DNA from: Sorangium aterium
Lineage (GTDB): Bacteria; Myxococcota_A; Polyangia; Polyangiales; Polyangiaceae
NCBI RefSeq assembly: GCF_028368935.1
Contig: NZ_JAQNDK010000003.1
Coordinates: forward strand, 310,001 to 374,000
Direction of reading: 5' to 3'
DNA: 64,000 nt
Shown here one piece after another: positions 45,325 to 58,645 of the stretch (position 1 is its first letter; every line of letters starts with the position of its first letter). The position numbers and the translations under genes are program-made. Under the pieces are notes generated by a model. It was given only the letters and a program-made list of their open reading frames with translations, was not told the origin of the DNA and searched no databases.

Positions 45325-47541
45325 ATGACGGAGCTTGCGCTCACCCTCAGCGGCGGCCTGCTCGGGCTCGCCTTTGCGGCTTACCTCGCTCGCTGGGTCG
45401 TCGCACGCCCCGCGGTCGAGCCCGAGATGCTGCGCGTTGCCGCGATCATCCAGGGGGTCGCGGAGGCGTACTTTCGCCGCCAGAGCAGCGTGATCGGCGC
45501 GGTCTCGGCGATGCTCGGCGGCGCCATCTTCCTCGCTTACGGCCTCCTCCGGCGCGCCGGGGAGAACAACCCGGTGCCAGCGCTGGAGCTCGGTGTCTGG
45601 CTGACGCTCTCGTTCGCGGTCGGGGCCGCCAGCGCGGTCGCGACCGGCCGCGTCGCCACCTGGATCGCGCCCCGCACCAGCGTGCGCGCCGCGAGCGGCG
45701 CCCGCCGCTCGCTCGATCTCGCGCTGCAGATCGCCCTCCGCGGCGGCGCCGTTTCGGGGCTCTTCGTCGCGAGCATGAGCCTGCTCGGCCTCGGCGGCCT
45801 GTTCGCCGCGGTCCTCGCGTTCCGTGGCGGCTTCGGCGCCGAGCCGGCCGAGGCGCTCGCGCTCGCCCCGACCATCCCCTGGGTCATCGCCGGTTACCCG
45901 CTCGGCGCCTCCTTCGCCGCCCTGATGGCGCAGCTCGGCGGCGGCACCTTCTCCAAGGCGGCCGACCTCGGCGCGGACCTCGCCGGCGCGGAGGTCGGGC
46001 TCGACGAGGACGACCTCCAGAACCCGGCCACGATCGTCGACCTGGCGGGCGATACGGTCGGCGACTGCGCCGGGCGCGCGGCCGGCGTCTTCGCCTCGAC
46101 CGTCGCCGAGAACGCGGGCGCCATGGTGGTCGGCGCGATGCTCTTCCGCAACAACGCCGGGCTCCCGAGCGCCCTCGCCGTCGTGCTCTTCCCGCTCGTC
46201 AGCCGCGCGTTCGGCCTCATCGCGACGCTCTTCGGCGTCATGGTGGTCAAGACCGACGACCGGGAGGACGCCTTCAACGCCCTCGTGCGGGGTCTCTACG
46301 TCACGGCCACCCTCCACGCCGTCGGCATCGCCGGGGCCGCCAAGTGGCTGCTCGACGCCCACTGGGTCGTCTTCTTCGCGTGCGGCGTGATCGGCATCGT
46401 CGCCGGCATCGGCGTGCTGCACGTCACGCAGTACTACACCGAGCAGCGGCACCGCCCGGTGCGCGAGCTCGCCGAGGCGGCGCGCAGCGGCTCCGCGATG
46501 GCGGTGCTGCGCGGGCTCGCCATCGGCCTCGAGAGCTCGGTGCTCCCGCTCCTGGTCGTCGTCGGCGCCACCTTCGGCTCCTACCTGCTCGGCGCCCGCT
46601 CCGGGCTCGCCGGGGGTGGCCTGTTCGGCACCGCGGTCGCGACGATGGGGATGCTGGGCACCTCGGGCTACGTCCTCGCCATGGATGCGTTCGGCCCCAT
46701 CGTGGACAACGCGGGCGGCATCGTCGCCGTGACCGTCGCCCGCGAGCGGCCGGACGTGCGTGGCCGCACCCTCGTGCTCGATGCCGTCGGGAACACGACC
46801 AAGGCGCTCACGAAGGCGTACACGGCCGGGGTGGCCGCGCTCGCCTCGCTGCTGCTCGTCGCGGGCTACCTCGATGAGTCCCGGCGCCGCGCTCTGGCGT
46901 CGAGCGCGCCGATCCGCGGCGAGACGACCGCGATGGTCCTGCGCCTCGACCGGCCCGAGGTCTATCTCGGCGCCCTGGTCGGGATCCTCCTTGTCTTCTG
47001 GCTGGCCGGCCGCTGCATTCGCAACGTCCTCCAGGCTGGCCGACGTGTCCTCGACGAAGTGAGGCGCCAGGCCCGGGCCCGTCCGCCGGGTTTCGTCGGC
47101 GACCACGAGCCCTGCGTCGAGATGGTCTCTCGGGCAGCGCTGCGCCACATGATCGCGCCGGCCCTCGTCTCCGTGGCGGTGCCCGTCGTCGTGGGACTTG
47201 CCTTGCGCTTTGCAAGGACGGAAGATAATCCTCTGGTCGCGGCCGATTCAGTCGCGGCCCTGATCATGGCCGGGACGGTCGCAGGCGTCCTCGGGTCGCT
47301 CTTCTTGGGGAATACCGGGGCGATCTGGGACAATGCGAGGCAGTACATCGCGACCGGCGCGCACGGTGGGCGCTACCTTGTCGACGAGACGGGGGCGCGG
47401 GCGGACAACCCCACCTATGGTGCCGCCGTCGTTGGCGACACGATCGGCGATCCGCTCAAGGACGTGGCCGGTCCCGCGATCCACGTGCTCATCAAGATGC
47501 TCCCCGCCGTGACCATCGTGTTCTTGCCGTTCTTCATCTGA
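45325..47541 (+). CDS. hppA: Membrane-bound ion-pumping pyrophosphatase, divergent
   Basis: 738 residues with about 16 transmembrane helices. Family blocks present are GGGTFSKAADLGADLAG, ATIVDLAGDTVGDCAG, DAFGPIVDNAGGI, GNTTKALTK and VVGDTIGDPLKD. The Lys in GNTTKA (~493) marks the K+-independent, H+-pumping type. The substrate-binding motif DX7KXE is altered: D214-x7-A222-E-V, so the invariant Lys is Ala and the Glu is displaced. DNVGDNVGD reads DLAGDTVGD (all three Asp kept), and the Asp usually found in GADLF is Gly254. The enzyme would couple PPi hydrolysis to proton transport, but these changes make activity uncertain. It is translationally coupled to the SNF2 gene downstream (TGATG). 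Confidence 0.9.
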   Translation: MTELALTLSGGLLGLAFAAYLARWVVARPAVEPEMLRVAAIIQGVAEAYFRRQSSVIGAVSAMLGGAIFLAYGLLRRAGENNPVPALELGVWLTLSFAVGAASAVATGRVATWIAPRTSVRAASGARRSLDLALQIALRGGAVSGLFVASMSLLGLGGLFAAVLAFRGGFGAEPAEALALAPTIPWVIAGYPLGASFAALMAQLGGGTFSKAADLGADLAGAEVGLDEDDLQNPATIVDLAGDTVGDCAGRAAGVFASTVAENAGAMVVGAMLFRNNAGLPSALAVVLFPLVSRAFGLIATLFGVMVVKTDDREDAFNALVRGLYVTATLHAVGIAGAAKWLLDAHWVVFFACGVIGIVAGIGVLHVTQYYTEQRHRPVRELAEAARSGSAMAVLRGLAIGLESSVLPLLVVVGATFGSYLLGARSGLAGGGLFGTAVATMGMLGTSGYVLAMDAFGPIVDNAGGIVAVTVARERPDVRGRTLVLDAVGNTTKALTKAYTAGVAALASLLLVAGYLDESRRRALASSAPIRGETTAMVLRLDRPEVYLGALVGILLVFWLAGRCIRNVLQAGRRVLDEVRRQARARPPGFVGDHEPCVEMVSRAALRHMIAPALVSVAVPVVVGLALRFARTEDNPLVAADSVAALIMAGTVAGVLGSLFLGNTGAIWDNARQYIATGAHGGRYLVDETGARADNPTYGAAVVGDTIGDPLKDVAGPAIHVLIKMLPAVTIVFLPFFI

Positions 47542-50500: not shown

Positions 50501-50966
50501 GGGCGGGCACAAGGTCCTCGTCTTCAGCCAGTTCGTGATGATGCTGAGGCTCATCGAGAAGGCGATGAAGGAGGATGGAGTCGCCTACGAGTACCTCGAC
50601 GGCTCCACGAAGGACCGGGCGGAGCGCGTCGAGCGCTTCCAGAGCGATCCGAGCGTGCCGGTCTTCCTCATCAGCCTCAAGGCGGGCGGCACCGGCCTGA
50701 ACCTCACCGCGGCCGACACGGTCATCCACTTCGATCCGTGGTGGAACCCGGCGGTCGAGCAGCAGGCCACGGACCGCGCCCACCGCATCGGTCAGACGAA
50801 GGTGGTGACGGCCTATCGGCTCATCGCCGAGGGCACGATCGAGGAGAAGATCCTGCTGCTCAAGGACAAGAAGCGCCAGCTCGTCGCGTCCGTCCTCAGC
50901 GAGGACGCCGGCGGCGCGAAGAAGCTCACCAAGGCCGACCTGGAAGAGCTGTTCGCGGTGGACTGA
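47541..50966 (+). CDS. SWIM zinc-finger SNF2/Rad54-family helicase
   Basis: 1141 residues if started at the ATG at 47541, which shares a base with the hppA stop; a GTG at 47637 is an alternative. A SWIM zinc finger is at ~107-121 (CSCPAFQKAGQHCKH, CxCx9CxH). A ~500-residue middle region is family-specific. The SNF2 ATPase occupies ~670-1130: Walker A DDMGLGKT, DEAQHIKNP (motif II variant DEAQ), LTGTPIEN, and the C-terminal block VFLISLKAGGTGLNLTAADT with DRAHRIGQ. SNF2 proteins translocate on double-stranded DNA and remodel protein-DNA complexes. Bacterial SWIM-SNF2 proteins are widespread but poorly characterised. Confidence 0.93.
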   Translation: MTVLHPAGFAKRSRSPDPSRRIAAAPVSRAHDVPPPISDALSTLSDRGLRRLLGARTFLRGLEYFRRRVVEDISINETMASGTVRAADSEPYPVKVELSPDGIQSQCSCPAFQKAGQHCKHVAALLISIRDQARGAQPRREPPIPALVPQTAHAGGDALKRVRRRDRRGRLAITPAAPVPTVVGTHGPPGSPVALAAPVLDATAKQTGIGAWLPPEGVTGARRVEFRLHVRQGALTVTVLDAEARVPVLPSAALAWQALYPTPDRDALRLLARFESGNPRHPAVDIRGEDVAELLPLLEGQRVLLEPALMQLRFGDDSLRPRFDLETVGGDTIIVKTSFERGNDKRRFSLLQGGWFEGWPGWHIDTQEGLARRIDKRVSPAAMRRLLRSPTIGEPMSELARIIMQGLPKIALEVGAELPDLNQIAEVVDLVPTFRMRAGGSLIEARVTLTAAYGDAEVAVRADGMSPPVLIQPPEEGMKRARCIRVDIAAQQEAASKLLALGLKPDETGQGFIANGDQALTFWTEGLAELPDDWDLFVPEDLVDTQVRGRPIGVFAKVTSGMDWLNVKLSFESEGVGVDRDELRRCLAEGKRYVRLEDGSFAAFDPDAVRAMLDREVELMMAAGKSGRLPLAQAGRVHELLQHASGSSVTASARELFQKLSNIDEIGSTKRPRNLKATLRPYQEAGLSWLKFIHDIGSGGVLADDMGLGKTVQTLALLLAVKQEEKHMRALIVAPTSVVTNWERELARFAPSLSVALWHGADRKDQIDEVKAAEVVITSYALLRRDEDFLAQLDLSYAILDEAQHIKNPMSATAAAAKRLRAKRRLALTGTPIENRLSEIWSIFDYVSPGLLGSLDKFEARFSRPIEAGDYKTAQRLRAAIHPFILRRTKQEVAKDLPEKIEMDQICDLTGEQRALYLQVAREVRAQVLGEVERVGLAKSQLQILAGLTRLRQAACDPRLLGLPREFGDDDSGKLVAVRELIANAVEGGHKVLVFSQFVMMLRLIEKAMKEDGVAYEYLDGSTKDRAERVERFQSDPSVPVFLISLKAGGTGLNLTAADTVIHFDPWWNPAVEQQATDRAHRIGQTKVVTAYRLIAEGTIEEKILLLKDKKRQLVASVLSEDAGGAKKLTKADLEELFAVD

Positions 50967-50974
50967 ACGAACGA

Positions 50975-51100
50975 CGGCGCGCAGGGGGAGCGCGCCGGTC
51001 GCGGAGCACCGGCCGATCCATGGGGGCGCGCAGGGGAGCGCGCCCCTCCCTCATGGGAGCACGGGTGGATCCATGACGGCGCTCGGAGTGGCCGTCATGG
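50975..51100. terminator. Array of three hairpins between convergent genes
   Basis: Hairpin 1: CGGCGCGC-AGGGGGA-GCGCGCCG (50975-50997). Hairpin 2: GGGGCGCGC-AGGGGA-GCGCGCCCC (51023-51046), with an outer CCATG/CATGG pair at 51018-51056. Hairpin 3: CCATGACGGC-GCTCGGAGTG-GCCGTCATGG (51071-51100), a 10-bp stem. All stems are perfect. They fill the gap between the SNF2 gene stop and the convergent TolR gene stop, so they probably insulate the two transcription units. Hairpins 1 and 2 are near-copies of each other. Confidence 0.65.
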
Positions 51101-51134
51101 GGGGCTTTGGGCACCGCAGGGCGGGGAAGGATGG

Positions 51135-51743
51135 CTACGGCTTGCGGCTGCCGCTCAGGACCATCAGGTGGTACTTGCCGAACTCGCTCTGCCCCAGGGT
51201 GAACAGGACCTCGATCAGGAGGCGGTACGGCGTGGTCGCGTCGGCGACGATGATCGCCTCCGACGACGACGGATCGAGCCCCTTCGCCGCGCGAATGGCT
51301 TTGTCCGTCTCGCGCGCGTGGGACAGGGCGTTCGCCAGCGGCACGATGTAGAGATCGTTCGGCCCGCTGCGCTTGTACTTTGCGTCGACGCCCGACTGCG
51401 CGAGCTGCTCGCGGTTGGGCAGCATGACGATCGGGGTCGGATCCTCGCCGACCAGGATCTGCGACTTCGAGACGATGACGACCACACCCTCCTGGGAGGG
51501 CTCGGCCTGCATCACCGACTTCGGCAGGGTGAGATCCTTCGACTGCGGGATGGATGCCGCCGACGATCCAACGCTCTTCAGCAAGAAGACGAGGATGATC
51601 GTCATCAGGTCGAGCATCGCCGTGATGTTCAAGAAGTCGATCTCGGGCTCCCGCCGGTTCCTTCGGATCGCCTTCCGGAGGGCCGCTTTGTAGCGGACGA
51701 CGCTCGCCCTCGGCCGCGGGGCAGGTCGCTGCTCGGCGCTCAT
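51135..51743 (-). CDS. TolR/ExbD-family protein (module A, second TolR)
   Basis: 202 residues from the ATG at 51743; the longer frame to 51911 runs over the previous gene. The N-terminus is basic and cytoplasmic, followed by one transmembrane helix at ~40-60. It contains the key Asp in NITAMLDLMTIILVFLL, the residue that takes part in proton flow in TolR/ExbD. The periplasmic domain is ~140 residues (QILVGEDPTPIVMLP, TPYRLLIEVLFTLGQSEFGK). The start overlaps the stop of the first TolR by 4 bp, so translation is coupled. It works with TolQ to turn proton flow into movement of a periplasmic partner. Confidence 0.9.
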   Translation of the reverse strand: MSAEQRPAPRPRASVVRYKAALRKAIRRNRREPEIDFLNITAMLDLMTIILVFLLKSVGSSAASIPQSKDLTLPKSVMQAEPSQEGVVVIVSKSQILVGEDPTPIVMLPNREQLAQSGVDAKYKRSGPNDLYIVPLANALSHARETDKAIRAAKGLDPSSSEAIIVADATTPYRLLIEVLFTLGQSEFGKYHLMVLSGSRKP

Positions 51744-52303
51744 CGGGCCACCCCGAAGTGGACCTCCGGGAACAGCACCTCCCCGTCGTCGCTCCTCAGC
51801 GCATCCATCACGTCGATGATCGTCTTGTAGTCGATGCCCGGGTTCGCCGTGATCGTCACCTGCGTCTCCTCTTTGAACTCGGAGCGGGCGTTCTTGAGGC
51901 GCTTCGCGCACGCCGTGAGGGCGGGATAGTCATAGCCATCGTTCACCTTCGGCACCGTGACCCCGCCGCCCACGTCCTGGCAGCCGGTCGCGATGTTGCC
52001 GCTCGACGTCTTCAGCGAGATCCCCTGGCTGGTGATGAACGCGGAGAGGTTCAACGCCTTGCTGGAGAGCTCGCTGCGCACCTTGCCCCCGCCGATGGAA
52101 GGCGGCGTCGTGTCGATTGACGACACGAATGTCACCGACACGCTGGCGAGCACGAAGATGAGGATGTTCGTGATGATGTCGAGGTACGGAACGACGTTGA
52201 GCTCGCCGGCCTCCTCCCCGGCTTCGGGCTCCTTGGGCTGCGACAGGCGCCGGATCTTCGATCGCTGCGCCGAGCTGAGCGGGACGTCTTGCGGGTCCGC
52301 CAT
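51740..52303 (-). CDS. TolR/ExbD-family protein (module A, first TolR)
   Basis: 187 residues. A cytoplasmic N-terminus rich in Lys/Glu/Pro is followed by a helix containing the conserved Asp (VVPYLDIITNILIFVLASV, ~residues 37-55). A ~130-residue periplasmic domain has two Cys (ATGCQDVG and ALTACAKRL), which may form a disulfide. It ends in ALRSDDGEVLFPEVHFGVA, the typical ExbD C-terminal fold. It starts 3 bp after the TolQ stop with no clear ribosome-binding site, so it probably depends on coupling. Confidence 0.9.
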   Translation of the reverse strand: MADPQDVPLSSAQRSKIRRLSQPKEPEAGEEAGELNVVPYLDIITNILIFVLASVSVTFVSSIDTTPPSIGGGKVRSELSSKALNLSAFITSQGISLKTSSGNIATGCQDVGGGVTVPKVNDGYDYPALTACAKRLKNARSEFKEETQVTITANPGIDYKTIIDVMDALRSDDGEVLFPEVHFGVAR

Positions 52304-52306
52304 GGG

Positions 52307-52984
52307 CTAGTAGCCAGGCTTGCTGCTGATCGTGAGCAGGTTGAACACGCGCTCCGTCGTCGACTCGAGATCGTGCTGGATGTTCTTGGAGCGGGTGTGG
52401 AGGAGCACGTGCGCGATCATGCACACCACCGCGATGGCGAGGCCGAACGCCGTGTTGTACATGGCCTCCGCGATGCCGTTCGAGAGCATCCGCTGCTTGT
52501 CGGCCTGCGAGAGGCCCTGGGCGGCGATGGAGGCGAACGTGTTGATCAGGCCGGAGACCGTCCCGATGAGGCCGATCAGCGTCGCGATGTTCGCGAGCGA
52601 CCACAGGGCGCCGATGCGCTTCTCCACGGCCGGCTTCAGCTCGGACAGCTTCTCGCTGAGGGCGGCGTCGATCTCGTCGGCCCCCTTGTTCGCGTGGGTC
52701 AGGCCGGCCTTGACGAGCTGCAGGATCGGATAGTCGCTCGCGTCGCAGAGCTTGATGGCGCGGTCGATGTTGCCGGCCGCCACCAGCTTCTTGACCTGCG
52801 CGAAGAACTCCTTGGAGTTCACGCGGTAGCGTCCGAGCTGGAACGCGGTTCGTTCGATGATGATGGTCACCACGACCGCGGAGACGACCAGGTTCGCGAT
52901 CAGGAAGGTCGGATTGTGTTTGATGGCCTCCCACATCCCACCTTCGCCACCACCCTCGGCCGCCAACATCAGCAGATGACGCAT
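52307..52984 (-). CDS. TolQ/ExbB/MotA-family proton channel protein (module A)
   Basis: 225 residues from the ATG at 52984, with GAGG nearby; the longer frame to 53128 lacks support. Three transmembrane helices lie at ~28-45, ~125-145 and ~175-195. The channel signature GLIGTVSGLINTF carries the conserved Thr/Ser lining the pore. Five TolQ/ExbB subunits surround a TolR/ExbD pair and use the proton gradient. It is the first gene of a three-gene operon and is followed by two TolR paralogues. The operon is divergent from a second such module at 53939. Confidence 0.93.
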   Translation of the reverse strand: MRHLLMLAAEGGGEGGMWEAIKHNPTFLIANLVVSAVVVTIIIERTAFQLGRYRVNSKEFFAQVKKLVAAGNIDRAIKLCDASDYPILQLVKAGLTHANKGADEIDAALSEKLSELKPAVEKRIGALWSLANIATLIGLIGTVSGLINTFASIAAQGLSQADKQRMLSNGIAEAMYNTAFGLAIAVVCMIAHVLLHTRSKNIQHDLESTTERVFNLLTISSKPGY

Positions 52985-53938
52985 CCTCGAAGTCCCTTTC
53001 TCAGCGTCGTCAGAAGCCCGACAATCTCCAGGCGCGGCGACTATAACTGCCGCCCGATCCCGTGCGCAAGCTCGGCGATGCTGCCGCGCCCCGAGCCGCG
53101 AGGCCGGGATCGCCGAAAATCCCCGCAAGAACCAGCGTATCTCACGGCGAGCTCACCCCGGCCACGCGGACGGGCGCCGGCGGTGTCGAGGCCGGACAGG
53201 GAGGTCCGGAGACCCCTGAATCGCCCGGACCGCCGGCGTCCGAGCGGGCCACCGTGCTCCGCCATGCCGCGTCCCCCGGGGCGGATGAGCCGCTGCGCTC
53301 GCTCTCGGGTGATGCGGCTCGCGCTGCCGCGCCGCGCGATCGGGCCGGCGGTGGTCATGCGGGCGCTGCGCCCCCTGAAATTCGCGGGATCTGCCGCATG
53401 TCGACCCGCATCGCGCCCGGCCGATCATGACATAACCCCGCGATTGTTGTAAAGTTTTGCCCGTATCAGAGCGCTCACGTGTGGCCAAATCTCTCTTGAC
53501 GGCGCCGGGTCTCAATCGCGAAGATGCGCGAGTCCCCCGGGCGCGTCGGCGTAGCTCGGCCACAAGGCGGCACGCTCTGCGGTGAACGGGGAGCCGCGCC
53601 CAGAGCCATGAAGGGCCCCTGGCGCGACGACGCGAAGTCAGTCTTGGACGACAGGTGGGAGAGCTGGGACGGCGCAGGGCGCCGGCACCAGAAGAGACGA
53701 TCAGGACTCTTGCAGAGGTCAGCGCCGCTCGGCTAGCGTCCCGTGGGCATCTCGCCAGAGAGCGACAGCAGCACGCCGTCCACGGCCAGCGCCGCCAAGC
53801 AAAAACAGGCCTCTCATCCGTCTTTACGTGTGAGTGAAAGACTGCCGCCCCTCGGCAACACGAGTCTGACAAAGGGAACCGATCGAGTTGCGCGAAACCT
53901 CATCCCGGGGACGCGAGGCGAACTGGAGGACAGAAGCA
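52985..53938. other. Divergent regulatory region, about 950 bp, between two QRR operons
   Basis: No gene is supported; the frames that cross it have Arg/Pro/Ser-rich junk composition. An AT-rich patch at 53425-53475 (GCGATTGTTGTAAAGTTTTG) stands out from the surrounding GC and is the best promoter candidate for one or both operons. The unusual length compared with other gaps in the window suggests complex regulation or a lost gene. Confidence 0.45.
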
Positions 53939-54601
53939 ATGCACGGAGCGTATGAAGCTTTCAAAGAGGGTGGGTGGGGTATGTGGCCCATCCTGTTCTG
54001 GTCGATCCTCACGATCGGCATCATCGTCGAACGCGCCCTCTACCTGTTCGGCTCGTCCATCAACAAGGACGTCTTTCTCGCCACCATGCAGAAGTGCATC
54101 CTGGCGGGTGACGTTGCCAAGGCCGTGAAGATGTGTTCGGCGGCGAACGCCCCGCTCGCCCGCATCGTCCAGGCTGGCCTCGTCAAGGTGAACCGTCCCG
54201 ACGAGGAGGTCCAGGCGGCGATGGACGAGGCGGCTCTCCGCGAGCTGCCGAAGATCTCGGCGCGCACCTCGTACCTCGCGCTGCTCGCGAACCTCGCGAT
54301 GCTCTCGGGCCTCCTCGGGACCGTGACGGGCCTCATCAAGTCGTTCGGCTCCGTCGCCGGCGAGTCGGTCGACCCCAGCCAGAAGGCCCGCGTGCTCGCG
54401 CTCGGGATCTCCGAGGCCATGAACTGCACCGCCTTCGGCCTCGGCGTGGCCATCATCGGCCTCATCGGCTTCGCCGTGCTGAACGGCAAGACGCAGCACA
54501 TCGAGGACGACATCAACGAGGCGTCGGTGCAGATCCTCAACCTCGTCGTCGCGAACCGTCAGAAGGTGAATGTCGCAGCAGTAGGTCAGGCGGCTGCCTG
54601 A
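53939..54601 (+). CDS. TolQ/ExbB/MotA-family proton channel protein (module B)
   Basis: 220 residues from the ATG at 53939, which has a strong GGAGG ribosome-binding site. The first transmembrane helix (MWPILFWSILTIGIIVERAL) is near residues 14-35, with two more in the C-terminal half. The pore motif GLLGTVTGLIKSF is present. The sequence is clearly different from the module A TolQ, so this is an old divergence rather than a recent copy. The first TolR follows after a 226-bp gap containing a strong hairpin, unlike the tight packing of module A. Confidence 0.93.
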   Translation: MHGAYEAFKEGGWGMWPILFWSILTIGIIVERALYLFGSSINKDVFLATMQKCILAGDVAKAVKMCSAANAPLARIVQAGLVKVNRPDEEVQAAMDEAALRELPKISARTSYLALLANLAMLSGLLGTVTGLIKSFGSVAGESVDPSQKARVLALGISEAMNCTAFGLGVAIIGLIGFAVLNGKTQHIEDDINEASVQILNLVVANRQKVNVAAVGQAAA

Positions 54602-54671
54602 TGGTCCTCGGCGGGCCCGGGTCGTCGAGCGCCCTTCGCGCGCGATGCAGCCTGGGCCCGCTCTCGCGCCT

Positions 54672-54718
54672 CGAAGCCCCCGACGGCGGCTTCCGCCGCC
54701 GGGGCCCCGGGAACTTCG
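54672..54718 (+). terminator. Strong stem-loop between tolQ and tolR of module B
   Basis: The inner stem is CCCCGACGGCGG (54678-54689) with CCGCCGCCGGGG (54693-54704), 12 bp with one mismatch and a CTT loop. An outer CGAAG (54672-54676) pairs with CTTCG (54714-54718). It sits inside the 226-bp gap of an operon and has no T-tract. It could reduce read-through into the TolR genes or protect the tolQ 3' end. Confidence 0.55.
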
Positions 54719-54827
54719 GAAGAGCGACGAAGTCAGACCCAGCATGGTGGCCCACCGCGAGCTGCGGGCAGGGCGTTCCCCGGAACAACTTGGATAGGTG
54801 AGCTCAGGCTCACGTTGGGAAGGCAAT

Positions 54828-55397
54828 ATGGGCGGCGTAGACGTCGGCGACGGTGGCGGCAAGAAGCGGTCGACGAACAGCGATATCAACATGATCCCGT
54901 TCATCGACCTGCTGATGGTCACGATTGCATTCCTGTTGATCACGGCGGTCTGGGTCACCAACTCGCGCATGAACGCGGACGCCCAGGTCCCTGGCCCTCC
55001 GGACCCGAACAAGGAGCTCACCCCGCAGACGCCGGAGAAGGTGCTGAACCTGCACATCGGCGAGAGCGAGTTCGGGCTCGTGTGGAAGCAGGGCGCGACG
55101 GTGGTCAACGAGGTCAAGGTCAACAAGTCACCCGTCGAGATCGGCGAGGCGGGCTCGAAGATCGTCCGCTACCCCGAGCTGGCGAAGCGGATCGAGGAGG
55201 AGTGGAAGACCCACGGCGGCCACCGGGACCCGAGCGACAAGAAGCTCGACCAGGCCATCCTCCACACCGACAACCGGACGCCCTTCAAGGAGATCGTCGC
55301 GGTGCTCGACGCGCTCTACGCGCCCAAGCGCGAGATGCGGCTGCCCGATGGGAACAAGCAGGTCCCCGTGTTCAACATGACGTTCTCGGTCCGCTGA
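54828..55397 (+). CDS. TolR/ExbD-family protein (module B, first TolR)
   Basis: 189 residues from the ATG at 54828 (GGGAAGG upstream); a GTG at 54798 is less likely. A short Gly/Lys-rich cytoplasmic start is followed by NMIPFIDLLMVTIAFLLITA, with the conserved Asp in the helix. The periplasmic domain is ~145 residues and contains GLVWKQGATVVNE and DNRTPFKEIVAVLDALYAP. Together with the next gene it gives the two-TolR composition seen in module A and in the Myxococcus gliding motor. Confidence 0.9.
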   Translation: MGGVDVGDGGGKKRSTNSDINMIPFIDLLMVTIAFLLITAVWVTNSRMNADAQVPGPPDPNKELTPQTPEKVLNLHIGESEFGLVWKQGATVVNEVKVNKSPVEIGEAGSKIVRYPELAKRIEEEWKTHGGHRDPSDKKLDQAILHTDNRTPFKEIVAVLDALYAPKREMRLPDGNKQVPVFNMTFSVR

Positions 55398-55412
55398 GGC
55401 AGGAGCGCGCAC

Positions 55413-55994
55413 ATGGATAGGTTCAATCCGAAGCACCACAAGAACCCCCACGCCCACGTGATCCACCAGCCGGGCCGCCGGCTGATGAAGGGCGTGCCGC
55501 TCCGGTTCGTGTGGAACAAGGTGTCCGGGCACGGCGCTCGCAGCCCGAACGCGGGGCTCAACCTCGTGAGCTTCATCGACTTCCTCGTCGTGACCGTGAT
55601 CTTCCTCCTGATGTCCTTCTCGGCGTCGGGCGAGATCGCCGTCGACAAGAACGTCAAGCTCCCGAAGGCGGAGAACGTCGAGGACGTCATCGACGCGCCG
55701 ATGGTCGCCGTGAACGGCAACCAGATCCTCGTCGACGGCGCCCTTGCCGGGTCGACCCGCGCGATCGAGGAGCTCGGGCGGCTTCAGAAGATCGACGAGC
55801 TCTTCAACCTGCTCAAGAACAAGCGCGAGCTGTGGAAGCAGGTGCAGCCGAACAAGCCGTTCCCCGGCGTGTGCATCCTCCAGGTCGATCAGAACGTGCC
55901 CGCGCTGGTCGTGAAGAGCGTGTTCCAGACCGCGGCGTTCGCCGGTTACCCGAACGTCAGCTTCATGGTCAGCAAGCTCCCGAAGTCGCAGTGA
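55413..55994 (+). CDS. TolR/ExbD-family protein (module B, second TolR)
   Basis: 193 residues; the ATG at 55413 is preceded by GGCAGGAGC. A His/Lys/Arg-rich cytoplasmic N-terminus of ~45 residues (FNPKHHKNPHAHVIHQPGRR) is unusual for the family. The membrane helix is NLVSFIDFLVVTVIFLLMSF with the conserved Asp. The periplasmic domain ends in AFAGYPNVSFMVSKL. It is 15 bp from the first TolR gene and cotranscribed. Confidence 0.9.
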   Translation: MDRFNPKHHKNPHAHVIHQPGRRLMKGVPLRFVWNKVSGHGARSPNAGLNLVSFIDFLVVTVIFLLMSFSASGEIAVDKNVKLPKAENVEDVIDAPMVAVNGNQILVDGALAGSTRAIEELGRLQKIDELFNLLKNKRELWKQVQPNKPFPGVCILQVDQNVPALVVKSVFQTAAFAGYPNVSFMVSKLPKSQ

Positions 55995-56184
55995 TCCCCG
56001 CTTCTTGACCTATCGAGCACAGAAGGATGGGGCACGCCGGGCGACCCCCGGCGGCCTCGGTCACCATGGAACGTGGTGGCTCCAGCGGCGCGCTCGGCGC
56101 GGCCTTCGCCTCTACGCGGCTCGCGTGGAGGAGGCTGCCTTGCTCGGGTGATCGGGCTGGGGCCTCCTGCGTGGAGCCTCTGCT

Positions 56185-57189
56185 ATGTCCTCTGAACAGC
56201 CGCCCCGCGAGCGCGGCTTGCCGTCGGTCTACAAGGCGCGCGAGGCGCGCTCCAAGATGCGCTGGCCCCCGGCGAAGTTCTGGGGTTACACGGCCCTCGT
56301 CCTGGCGGTCTCGGCGATCCTCCACTGGAAGTGGTCGCAGGGGCAGATGGAGAGCGCGCGCCAGAAGCTGATGGCGCGCCAGCGCGCGGTCGCCGTCGAG
56401 CTCGGCCCGCGCTGGTTCCCCATGCGCGAGCGCGTGGAGGGCTGGACCCTCGATCTGGCGCGGAGCGCTGGCGCCGATCTCGTGGATCGGGAAGCGCTCA
56501 AGACGTGGAATTTCCGTGAGCTTGCGGGTATTTACCTCCGCCTCCGGGTGGACGAGGCCACGGGCGTCGACGCCGTCCGGAAGAACGCGCAGCAGTCGCT
56601 CCGCGACGCGTTCACCGCGTGTCTCTTGCGTGTGCCGAACCCGAACCCGCTGGCCGGCGCGGAGTGCAAGCGCACGCGGGACTGCCCCGCGGGCGAGTAC
56701 TGCAACGAGGCCGAGCGCTGTTCCAGGCCCGCGCAGCCCTTCAACCTGCGCGTCGCCTACCGGACCATGCAGGTCCTCTCGGACGAGTGGGTGCGTGACG
56801 CACAGGATGCCTCGAGCGAGCTCCGCCTGCGGCTGCTGGAGTCCAGCTTCGAGGACACGATCCGAGACGATGTCCCGCTCGCGGCGGAGCTCCTCACGCG
56901 GGCGCAGTATTACCTCCTCGTCCTCGACGAGCCGGCCGAGGGGGCGGCGAGCACCGAGGCGCTGCTCGGCGTGCCGCACATGGCGCGGGTCGGGGTGTGG
57001 CGGCTGTCGGACGGCAAGCCCATCCTGCGGGTGCGCCGCGAAGCGAGCGGCAATCTCATCGGCGGGACGCCCTCGATCGAGGGGAGCGTGCTCGATGCGC
57101 GGCAGCGGCAGGCGAACAGCTGCGCGCTCGCTCTCGCGGTGCGCGAGGCGATGGGCGACACGACGGCCGCTGTCGCCGAGCCGCAGTGA
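56185..57189 (+). CDS. Single-pass membrane protein linked to the QRR module B, with Cys-rich motif
   Basis: 334 residues from the ATG at 56185 (GGAG upstream). A basic cytoplasmic N-terminus of ~35 residues leads into one helix (FWGYTALVLAVSAILHW). The ~280-residue domain outside has a compact Cys motif, ECKRTRDCPAGEYCNEAERC (four Cys, ~residues 155-175), resembling EGF-like or colipase-like knots. I know no family. It is cotranscribed with module B by position (190-bp gap, same strand) and is a candidate periplasmic partner for the motor. That role is inference. Confidence 0.8.
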   Translation: MSSEQPPRERGLPSVYKAREARSKMRWPPAKFWGYTALVLAVSAILHWKWSQGQMESARQKLMARQRAVAVELGPRWFPMRERVEGWTLDLARSAGADLVDREALKTWNFRELAGIYLRLRVDEATGVDAVRKNAQQSLRDAFTACLLRVPNPNPLAGAECKRTRDCPAGEYCNEAERCSRPAQPFNLRVAYRTMQVLSDEWVRDAQDASSELRLRLLESSFEDTIRDDVPLAAELLTRAQYYLLVLDEPAEGAASTEALLGVPHMARVGVWRLSDGKPILRVRREASGNLIGGTPSIEGSVLDARQRQANSCALALAVREAMGDTTAAVAEPQ

Positions 57190-57267
57190 GGGCGCGCCGC
57201 CCCCGGGGCGTCCATCCCGCTCATCGCGCCTGCGCGCGCCAGCTCGCGTCGTAGTCCGCGCTGCGGC

Positions 57268-57350
57268 GTGAGTTCACGCGGCTGTGCGTTGCCGCGTGAG
57301 CTCATGCGCGCCGCCGCGCCTCAGCGCGCGTTGCCGCGTGAGCTCACGCG
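57268..57350. repeat. Three palindromic repeats at the end of the glycerate kinase gene
   Basis: GTGAGTTCAC (57268-57277), GTGAGCTCA (57296-57304) and CGCGTGAGCTCACGCG (57335-57350, a perfect 16-bp palindrome) share one core. The last two also share the 19-bp direct repeat GCGTTGCCGCGTGAGCTCA (57286 and 57328). Spacings are 28 and 42 bp, both multiples of 14. The third palindrome contains the stop codon of the glycerate kinase gene. They lie between convergent genes. Confidence 0.6.
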
Positions 57351-58645
57351 TGCGCGCCTCTCTGGAAGTCTCGCGCAACGATGTGCAGGTCCGTGAGGTT
57401 GTGACCTGTCGGCCCGGTCTCGACACGCGTGCCGAGCGCGCGATGAACGACGGCGTCGTCGAAGCGCGCGAGCGCCGCGTCGATCGCGCGGTCGTCCATC
57501 GCGGCAGCTCCGGCGCCGCGGGCGACGGCCGCCCCCGCGGCGCCGGAGCTGCCGTCGACGCCGTCGGAGGCCGCGCAGAGGAGCGCGACGTCGGGCGGCA
57601 AGCGGCGCAGGGCGGCGAGCGCGATCCATCCTGCGCGGCCGCCGGCGCCGCGGTGGGCCGGCAGCGCCAGCGTCGGCTCGCAGGGGATCACAGCGGCTTC
57701 GCCGGGAGCGAGGGTGCGCGCGAGCGCGAGGCGGCGCTCCACGATCGTGCGCGCATCGCCGTCCTCGGCGGGGGCGGCGGCGGCGCGGAGCCCTGTCCTG
57801 TCGGCGAGGGCCGCCGCCACACGCTCGGCGAGCTTGTCCGGATCGGCGAGCACGCGCGCTTCCAGCAGGCGCGCGTCCGCTGGCTTCAGCGACTCGCTGA
57901 GCGCGGGCGTGAGCCGCGCGAACCGGGGAGCCCAGCGCTCGAGGGCGGCGAGCGCCTCCTCCAGGCGCGTCGGGTCCGGGACGGTGGGGCCCGAGCCGAC
58001 GTCGTGCGGGAGTCCACCCACGACGTCGCTCATGAGCAGCGTCAGCACGCGCGCCGGGACCGCCGCCGCCGCGAGCCGCCCACCCTTGATCCGCGACAGG
58101 TGGCGGCGAACGAGGTTGACGTCCTGGATCGGCGCGCCTGCTTCCAGGAGCTCTGCGACGACGGCCTGCTTGTCCGCGAGGGACACGCCCGGAGGCGGCG
58201 CGGCGATCAGCGCCGACGCGCCGCCGGACAGGAGGGCGATCAGGAGATCCTCGGGCCCGAGCGCGGCCGCGATGGCGAGGGCCGCTTCGGCCGCGTCGAC
58301 GCTGCGCGCGTCGGGGATGGGGTGCGCCGCGCGCATCACGCGCAGCGGGCGCAGCGCGGTCTCCTCGGGGTCGGTCGGCGATGTCGTCTCATCGCGCGCG
58401 GCGAGCGCCGGGGCCGCGACCGTGATGACGAGCCCTCCGGCGATCCTGTCACCCCAGCGGCGGAGCGCCCCCCGGGCCATCCCGGGCGCCGCCTTCCCCG
58501 CCGCGATCACGAACACGCGGCCGCGGTGCGCTCCGGCCTCGGCGTCGAGCGCGCGCTCGACGAGCCCTGCTGGGTCGAGCTCCGTCAGCCCGGCGCGGAA
58601 CGCGGCCACCAGCGCCGCGCGCAGCTCGCCGAGCGCAGCGCTCAA
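57344..58645 (-). CDS. Glycerate 2-kinase (GckA/MOFRL type)
   Basis: 433 residues from a TTG at 58645 whose bases overlap the stop of the gene before (TTGA). The family signatures are VIAAGKAAPGMA (residues ~45-57), LLSGGASAL, the ASDGVDGSSGAAGA block and C-terminal GPTGHNLTDLHIV. The enzyme phosphorylates D-glycerate at carbon 2 to feed glycolysis. It is the last of three overlapping genes. Its 3' end carries palindromic repeats. Confidence 0.9.
   Translation of the reverse strand: MSAALGELRAALVAAFRAGLTELDPAGLVERALDAEAGAHRGRVFVIAAGKAAPGMARGALRRWGDRIAGGLVITVAAPALAARDETTSPTDPEETALRPLRVMRAAHPIPDARSVDAAEAALAIAAALGPEDLLIALLSGGASALIAAPPPGVSLADKQAVVAELLEAGAPIQDVNLVRRHLSRIKGGRLAAAAVPARVLTLLMSDVVGGLPHDVGSGPTVPDPTRLEEALAALERWAPRFARLTPALSESLKPADARLLEARVLADPDKLAERVAAALADRTGLRAAAAPAEDGDARTIVERRLALARTLAPGEAAVIPCEPTLALPAHRGAGGRAGWIALAALRRLPPDVALLCAASDGVDGSSGAAGAAVARGAGAAAMDDRAIDAALARFDDAVVHRALGTRVETGPTGHNLTDLHIVARDFQRGAHA

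Follow-up and report, generated by a model that had tools for sequence, protein, structure and literature searches.

In the 64,000-nt stretch of Sorangium aterium DNA analysed here (contig NZ_JAQNDK010000003.1, positions 310,001 to 374,000; referred to as the window), six motor genes form two divergent modules, A and B, each composed of a TolQ-type channel gene (Q) and two TolR-like genes (R1 and R2). Module B is the orthologue of AglRQS of Myxococcus and module A that of the Myxococcus motor M2 (MXAN_3003-3005). The modules lie head to head, each is preceded by its own promoter-like element, and R1 and R2 are members of an ancient pair. The two modules are likely to be separate AglRQS-type, proton-driven motors, module B powering a gliding-type Glt complex and module A a G4-type Glt complex.

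The most likely role of module B (53939-55994) is to power a gliding-type Glt complex whose genes lie elsewhere in the genome; this role would follow from its orthology to AglRQS. Module A (51135-52984) most likely powers the G4-type complex, a putative envelope machine of TPR and GltG proteins; its cluster also encodes a polysaccharide-export protein. Clusters of this kind in other Myxococcota still hold their own motor. By analogy with the family, both motors may use protons and have a 5:2 form, each presumably a TolQ-type pentamer around a TolR-type dimer of one R1 and one R2.

Gene content of the locus

All coordinates are positions in the window; the genome to which it belongs comprises 13.5 Mb on 7 contigs. 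Module A is encoded on the reverse strand by QA (52307..52984; Pfam MotA_ExbB, E 1.4e-25), RA1 (51740..52303; Pfam ExbD, E 1.6e-8) and RA2 (51135..51743; ExbD, E 7.7e-11), and the reading frames of RA1 and RA2 overlap by 4 bp. Module B is encoded on the forward strand by QB (53939..54601; MotA_ExbB, E 1.2e-24), RB1 (54828..55397; ExbD, E 8.1e-12) and RB2 (55413..55994; ExbD, E 6.1e-10). All six proteins scored above the Pfam gathering score. QA and QB are about 34% identical, and their starts are 954 bp apart, in agreement with the gap of about 950 bp given in a preliminary description made from the letters of the sequence. That description had also listed an accessory membrane protein, which was found after module B and is termed ACC here, and a helix Asp in all four TolR-like proteins, which the alignment bore out (4/4).

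None of the window motor proteins exceeded the cut-off of the NCBIfam models for TolQ, ExbB, TolR and ExbD, and the TolQ, ExbB and TolR scores were far below it. Reading of the neighbouring genes together with Pfam searches revealed no TolA, TolB, Pal or TonB adjoining either module, as had been described; the locus is flanked by genes for a membrane H+-pyrophosphatase, an SNF2 helicase, a DUF4147/MOFRL protein and an HD protein. An Rfam search of 50900-57400 gave no match. Searches against solved structures yielded, above noise, distant TolQ, ExbB, TolR and ExbD chains only. A chance arrangement of the module pair was excluded because, across many genomes of the phylum sample, the orthologues are arranged in the same order.

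Phylogeny of the channel subunits

Two Myxococcus reference genomes, Myxococcus sp. CA023 and M. xanthus AM003, were reached with Protein S as bait. TIGR02265 was of no use as a Myxococcus marker; it matched in 4 of 377 genomes of the phylum sample, all from the window's order. Both references contained eight Pfam Q matches, two of them in Agl-type modules. AglRQS was recognised by the subunit lengths 245, 162 and 194 (the last counted from an inner Met) and by Asp28 in the second subunit. The lengths 245/162/194 are tabulated in the available part of PMC3169522, and the aglQ D28N mutation paralysed the motor of M. xanthus according to the available part of PMC3858216.

AglR was 53% identical to QB and 36% to QA. 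The Q of M2 was 42% identical to QA, 38% to QB and 44% to the Q of locus L084, which served as reference for a third, core type of module: modules were called core-type if their Q matched the L084 Q best. AglQ matched RB1, which has D at the column of AglQ D28, and the best window match of AglS was RB2. RA1 and RA2 were 37% and 39% identical to R1 and R2 of M2, respectively.

The Q tree was calculated with 70 proteins after removal of L112, L137, L124, L153, L155 and L059 for long branches or identity; in a quick tree with all 76 rows, L112 and L137 fell on the side of the core type and module A, on long branches. In the 70-protein tree, the Agl-type Qs formed a group apart, with a support of 100/99, from the Qs of the Tol, Ton and Exb systems in this genome and related ones. 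Clade A included the M2 Q (100/95) and clade B included AglR (98/80). The core-type Qs were paraphyletic to clade A, and core type and clade A were joined with 97/95. Based on this tree and on gene order, module B was assigned as the AglRQS orthologue and module A as the M2 orthologue. The resemblance to AglRQS pointed out in the preliminary description is thus homology for both modules, and both fall outside the ordinary ExbBD and TolQR clades.

It is scarcely credible, with this split, that A and B represent ordinary ExbBD or TolQR motors after loss of TonB or TolA. The Pfam families concerned are shared with such motors, and two Ton operons of the same genome also consist of one Q and two Rs; against this stand the separation at 100/99 and the NCBIfam TolQ, ExbB and TolR scores far under the cut-off. 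No TonB_C protein adjoins either module and the Qs lie outside the ExbB clade, which speaks against membership in a Ton system; membership in Tol-Pal was likewise dismissed, as the TolA/TolB/Pal locus of the genome is situated elsewhere (C2:2,288 kb) and its clade differs.

AglRQS (M1, MXAN_6862-6860), the motor of gliding and of the spore coat in M. xanthus, is listed among motility motors in the available part of PMC12204202, where M2 does not figure. AglRQS shares with module B the order Q-R1-R2, an Asp in both TolR-like subunits and the lack of an adjoining transducer gene. Module B differs from it by ACC as a fourth gene, which was not found downstream of aglRQS in the Myxococcus genome read, and by the M2-type motor placed head to head. 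Module A and M2 agree in gene order; M2 is unlinked to aglRQS in Myxococcus, whereas module A is linked to module B in the window's order. Homologues of aglR and aglS were placed in the dif cluster of Anaeromyxobacter in the available part of PMC2330069. The 'core complex' clusters of the Glt/Agl machinery (gltC-D-E, aglRQS and gltG; PMC3169522, available part) differ from the window modules, which lie outside any Glt cluster.

Other motor genes of the genome

Pfam searches of the whole genome gave eight Q matches and twelve R matches. The neighbourhoods of the loci outside the window were read and checked with Pfam, and comprised one Tol-Pal locus at C2:2,288 kb, two loci of ExbB-ExbD-TonB type with a single R, and two of TonB-ExbB-ExbD-ExbD type with a pair of Rs (C1:388 kb and C1:1,537 kb). 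The latter share the composition of one Q and two Rs with the window modules, but have TonB next to Q, a TonB-dependent receptor alongside and Qs in a separate clade. The composition had been regarded as unusual and typical of Agl motors; it was rejected as a marker since it is not a mark of gliding motors when two Ton operons of this genome have it.

Four further observations concern motor composition. The Q match G000:C3:541-849 at a contig start had a score identical to that of the Tol-Pal Q of C2 and is probably due to assembly overlap. A lone protein with 57% identity to RB1 is encoded at C1:3,454 kb (L074:9232-9906), with no Q alongside. A tandem pair of QB-like channel genes, representing a different motor composition, was found at L107:751-2076 (G037), and a second RB2-like gene, 75% identical, at L177 (G120:C51) in a stretch without Q match.

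Conservation of the head-to-head pair

The first sample consisted of 140 genomes of the phylum, 23 of them from the window's order. RB2 was matched in 79 and RA2 in 99 of the 140 genomes, both counts including cross-matches among A, B and core modules. Modules A and B were head to head in 20 of the 23 genomes of the order; in G056 the two modules were on separate contigs, both beginning close to a contig end, and no match for A was obtained in G036 and G089. A second sample of the order, which overlaps the first, comprised 115 genomes, 112 of them with a match. Here, A and B were divergent in 43 of 46 genomes among the matches listed, with 268-1272 bp between the matched parts; the exceptions among these were again G036 and G089, without A, and G384, with A and B on different contigs. 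The pairing described for the window is therefore conserved in its order. Neither poor conservation of the pair nor a placement of the modules among ordinary ExbBD or TolQR motors, the two outcomes named beforehand as speaking against the earlier interpretation, was found. A and B were unlinked in G076 and G085, which belong to the same class, and in Myxococcus.

The pair may be inherited synteny without functional meaning, a reading that we consider improbable. Common ancestry of A and B in the Q tree would agree with it, as would the separate promoter-like elements of the two operons, by which joint regulation is not shown. However, the order was kept in the 43 of 46 genomes although the flanking genes of the pair vary between the families of the order, and the pair is not a local duplication of the order because A is related to the core modules and not to B.

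A gene for a membrane H+-pyrophosphatase (45325-47541; Pfam 5e-183) is located two genes away from module A. Relatives of this protein (30-36% identity) were present near module A in five other loci of the window's family, with a partial match in L174, and a distant relative (23%) adjoins module A in L082.

The two TolR-like subunits

The R tree was calculated with 117 proteins, 112 of Agl type, chosen from the loci in hand, and 5 of the outgroup. All R1 proteins were split from all R2 proteins with 100/98 across the A, B and core modules, RA1 falling on the R1 side and RA2 on the R2 side. The seven R groups needed six changes on the tree, the fewest possible, with the A-type R2 and the B-type R2 being paraphyletic and not single clades. 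R1 and R2 were assigned on this basis as ancient paralogues.

No sign of an exchange of R subunits between modules was seen in the 117-protein tree. The earlier suggestion of a single motor with exchangeable parts was not sustained, the sequences of A, B, R1 and R2 sorting with the fewest possible changes. A mixed motor formed by A and B, or a swapping of TolR subunits, could be imagined from the adjacency of the modules and the identity of about 34% between QA and QB, and was judged very unlikely: the seven R groups sort in the most economical way, in spite of the paraphyly of the A-type and B-type R2, the modules are unlinked in Myxococcus, G076 and G085, and B is present without A in G036 and G089.

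The helix residues distinguish the core type from the other two. In core-type modules (L084, L085, L119 and others), the Asp is replaced by Asn in 15 of the 16 distinct R1 rows and is kept in 16 of 16 R2 rows, whereas both window R1s have Asp. L127, the row that departs from this, lies closer to A in the Q tree than any other core row does. Of the core-type loci, 11 showed Glt neighbours, and R1 carries Asn in 10 of these. Among the A-type modules, Asp was present in 28 R1 rows (one row was gapped) and 27 R2 rows, at least one A-type row (L133) having been counted as R1 in spite of its R2 motif; among the B-type modules, including that of the window, it was present in 36 R1 and 36 R2 rows. A heterodimer of R1 and R2 in Agl-type motors is suggested with some confidence because R1 is kept in core-type modules although Asn cannot bind a proton.

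Glt clusters of the core, G1 and G4 types

At eleven loci of Myxococcota (L084, L085, L119 and others), a Q-R-R triplet is situated beside a GltG-like gene and mostly GltC-, GltD- and GltE-like TPR genes. These surroundings correspond to the 'core complex' in the available part of PMC3169522. The proteins of the core clusters scored under the cut-off of the NCBIfam GltG and GltE models and above that of the AgmX/PglI tail domain.

The window's genome contains two Glt clusters without motor triplet, one of G1 type (C3:224-235 kb; gltC-D-E-F-G) and one of G4 type (C1:2,793-2,805 kb). The label G4-type was used because the GltC and GltD relatives in Myxococcus adjoin a small GTPase and a Roadblock protein (Pfam Arf and Robl_LC7). 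In Myxococcus sp. CA023, these two proteins adjoin a core-kind cluster with GltD- and GltC-like genes (L197:115-7792), whose E-F-G end lies beyond the contig. We take the small GTPase and the Roadblock protein to be MglA and MglB, and the cluster is presumably the published G4 cluster (MXAN_1922), to judge from the mgl locus tags. The G1-type gltG of the window's genome (L196:15187-17230, C3:232-234 kb) consists of two overlapping frames, an FHA half and a TonB-tail half, owing to a frameshift or a sequencing error; in G012 it is one frame.

In the window's order, G4-type clusters are arranged like the core clusters and end with genes for a short protein, a presumed outer-membrane protein and a polysaccharide-export protein (Pfam Poly_export in G102). 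In genomes that carry module A, the stretch from F to G was read for eight G4-type clusters (G000, G102, G012, G347, G339, G177, G085 and G076), and none held an intact Q-R-R. No gene separates F from G in G012 and G076, nor in G172, G403, G415 and G374, for which no A was detected. In G177, the protein between F and G (L241:16987-17559) is a degenerate Q: it matched the Q profile by hhalign with 88.5% (E 2.7e-6, 159 columns) and by hmmsearch with 2.3e-7 in a set of at most 27 frames, and the ACC family, used as a control for hhalign, gave 0.2%. Probably, G4-type clusters once held their own motor, because this degenerate Q sits between F and G. A simpler formula, by which the G4 cluster is the core cluster minus exactly Q-R-R, was rejected because of the degenerate Q and because G000, G102, G347 and G339, all from the window's family, encode between F and G a protein of about 200 amino acids that had no Pfam match over the cut-off.

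In G102, G051, G115 and G111 of the window's family, the G4-type gltC and the motor pair share a contig, at a distance of about 58-78 kb from each other. At L125:6692-9315 (G039), a GltG-like gene immediately precedes a B-type Q-R-R, which may represent a direct link between B-type motors and GltG.

Module A and the G4-type complex

The occurrence of G4-type GltC was compared with that of module A in 40 genomes: 28 with A, 2 lacking both, 8 with GltC and without detected A, and G402 and G099. All 28 genomes with A had a G4-type GltC (at least 370 bits). G036 (98% complete) and G089 (100% complete) had neither, and G347, of the same genus, had both. In G402 a fragment of A was present together with GltC, and in G099 a core module lies inside the cluster.

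The proposal that module A is the detached motor of the G4-type Glt complex is made because the closest relatives of A are motors inside Glt-like clusters. We regard it as evenly balanced because eight genomes without detected A keep the cluster and because a test for co-evolution failed its control. The following results weigh against the proposal. The eight genomes with a G4-type GltC and no A among the matches listed were G046, G172, G403, G410, G415, G374, G408 and G400; six of them were rated 80-90% complete, G172 100% and G046 98%, and no Q of either module was detected in G374 and G408. The resulting table (28/0 versus 8/2) gave p 0.064 in Fisher's test, with genomes that are not independent of each other. 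Mirror-tree analysis of A against G4-type GltC yielded a partial correlation of 0.39 for 24 genomes and of 0.76 for 12 genomes of the family, a value not reached in any of 2000 label shuffles; the control, A against G1-type GltC, gave 0.71, about equal to A-G4, and B showed no preference for G1-type GltC. Mirror-tree was rejected as evidence for the A-G4 partnership, as it failed this control and A follows the distances between species more closely than B does. In the window's family, the protein encoded between F and G (in the window's genome L195:5209-5829) matched the Q profile over its full length only weakly (hhalign 16.7%, E 0.0015); the relic in G177 supports a former motor in the cluster, and this weak match does not settle it.

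In the available part of PMC3858216, sporulation was unaffected by deletion of MXAN_3004, and two-hybrid assays gave no binding of MXAN_3003 to GltG or NfsG; these results, too, were weighed against the proposal, and they fit a separate role, naming none. Deletion of M2 (MXAN_3004) and disruption of G4 and G5 had no effect on motility in the available part of PMC3169522, where the function is called unknown. A literature search with the M2 locus tags led to these two papers only, and a search for AglRQS with Sorangium or Polyangium gave no title on this locus among the matches listed.

Alternatively, module A may be an Agl-type motor for another envelope process, or may assist AglRQS itself, which was judged somewhat unlikely. 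Assistance of AglRQS would explain the linkage with the AglRQS orthologue that is conserved in the order, and the eight genomes without detected A as well as the negative mirror-tree control agree with such a role. On the other hand, A groups with motors inside G4-like clusters, the eight G4-type clusters read in genomes with A lack an intact Q-R-R and one of them holds the degenerate Q, A and G4 are both absent from G036 and G089, and M. xanthus gliding is unaffected by the M2 deletion (PMC3169522, available part). For the G4-type partnership of module A, the position of A in the Q tree, the eight clusters, the degenerate Q of G177 and the joint presence or absence of A and G4-type GltC in the 28 genomes and in G036 and G089 are the observations that speak in its favour.

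Intergenic elements and the accessory protein

Before module A, a conserved promoter-like element (TTGC.. 18 nt TATAGT) is located at 53040..53071 on the reverse strand; it was present in 11 of the 12 loci compared, including the window. Before module B, a second element (TTGACG 18 nt GAAGAT) is located at 53485..53525 on the forward strand, about 440 bp before QB; it was present in 7 of the 12 loci, the seven closest, including the window. Each pattern had one match in the 64 kb window, and both were derived from the same intergenic alignment of 12 loci in which they were counted. A putative separate promoter was thus assigned to each operon. A common bidirectional promoter at 53424-53455, indicated by mechanical hits, was rejected since it was not kept in relatives, in which the two separate elements are conserved instead.

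In ACC (56185..57189, forward strand), one hydrophobic helix was recognised by eye near the N-terminus, together with a putative periplasmic domain. No Pfam or NCBIfam match over the cut-off was obtained. Matches to ACC were found in 15 of the 140 phylum genomes, all of the window's order, and in other families of this order more weakly matching relatives come after module B, so that ACC follows B in much of the order. Two Cys of the putative periplasmic domain are invariant in an alignment of 18 rows. A fold from single-sequence prediction was unusable (mean predicted local distance difference test score, pLDDT, 35.9). ACC may have an accessory or transducer role.

Significance of the two motors

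The type of machine is already known; new are the fixed pairing, the analysis of R1 and R2, and a candidate partner for M2. Of the earlier interpretation, homology to AglRQS, the pairing, and a division into gliding and a different process stood, the latter as B groups with AglRQS and A with M2 and with the gliding role of B deduced from orthology; composition as a marker and exchangeable parts did not.

A wider reading joins these results and is offered tentatively. The A/M2 motor would be the detached motor of a G4-type machine that moves or organises exported surface polysaccharide, kept beside the gliding motor for joint set-up, with a degenerate Q left in some G4 clusters; R1 and R2 would form an obligate heterodimer in all Agl-type motors, with only R2 carrying the proton in most core-type motors.

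The ACC family is a candidate accessory protein for gliding-type motors in the window's order. Whether AglQ and AglS form homo- or heterodimers is stated as not known in the available part of PMC9389320, and the fixed R1/R2 pair together with the natural change of Asp to Asn bears on this question. Since 2011, M2 has had no known function. A candidate partner for it, the G4-type Glt complex, emerges from this locus and the core clusters, and the conserved pairing with the AglRQS orthologue provides a concrete lead on what the M2-type motor may do.

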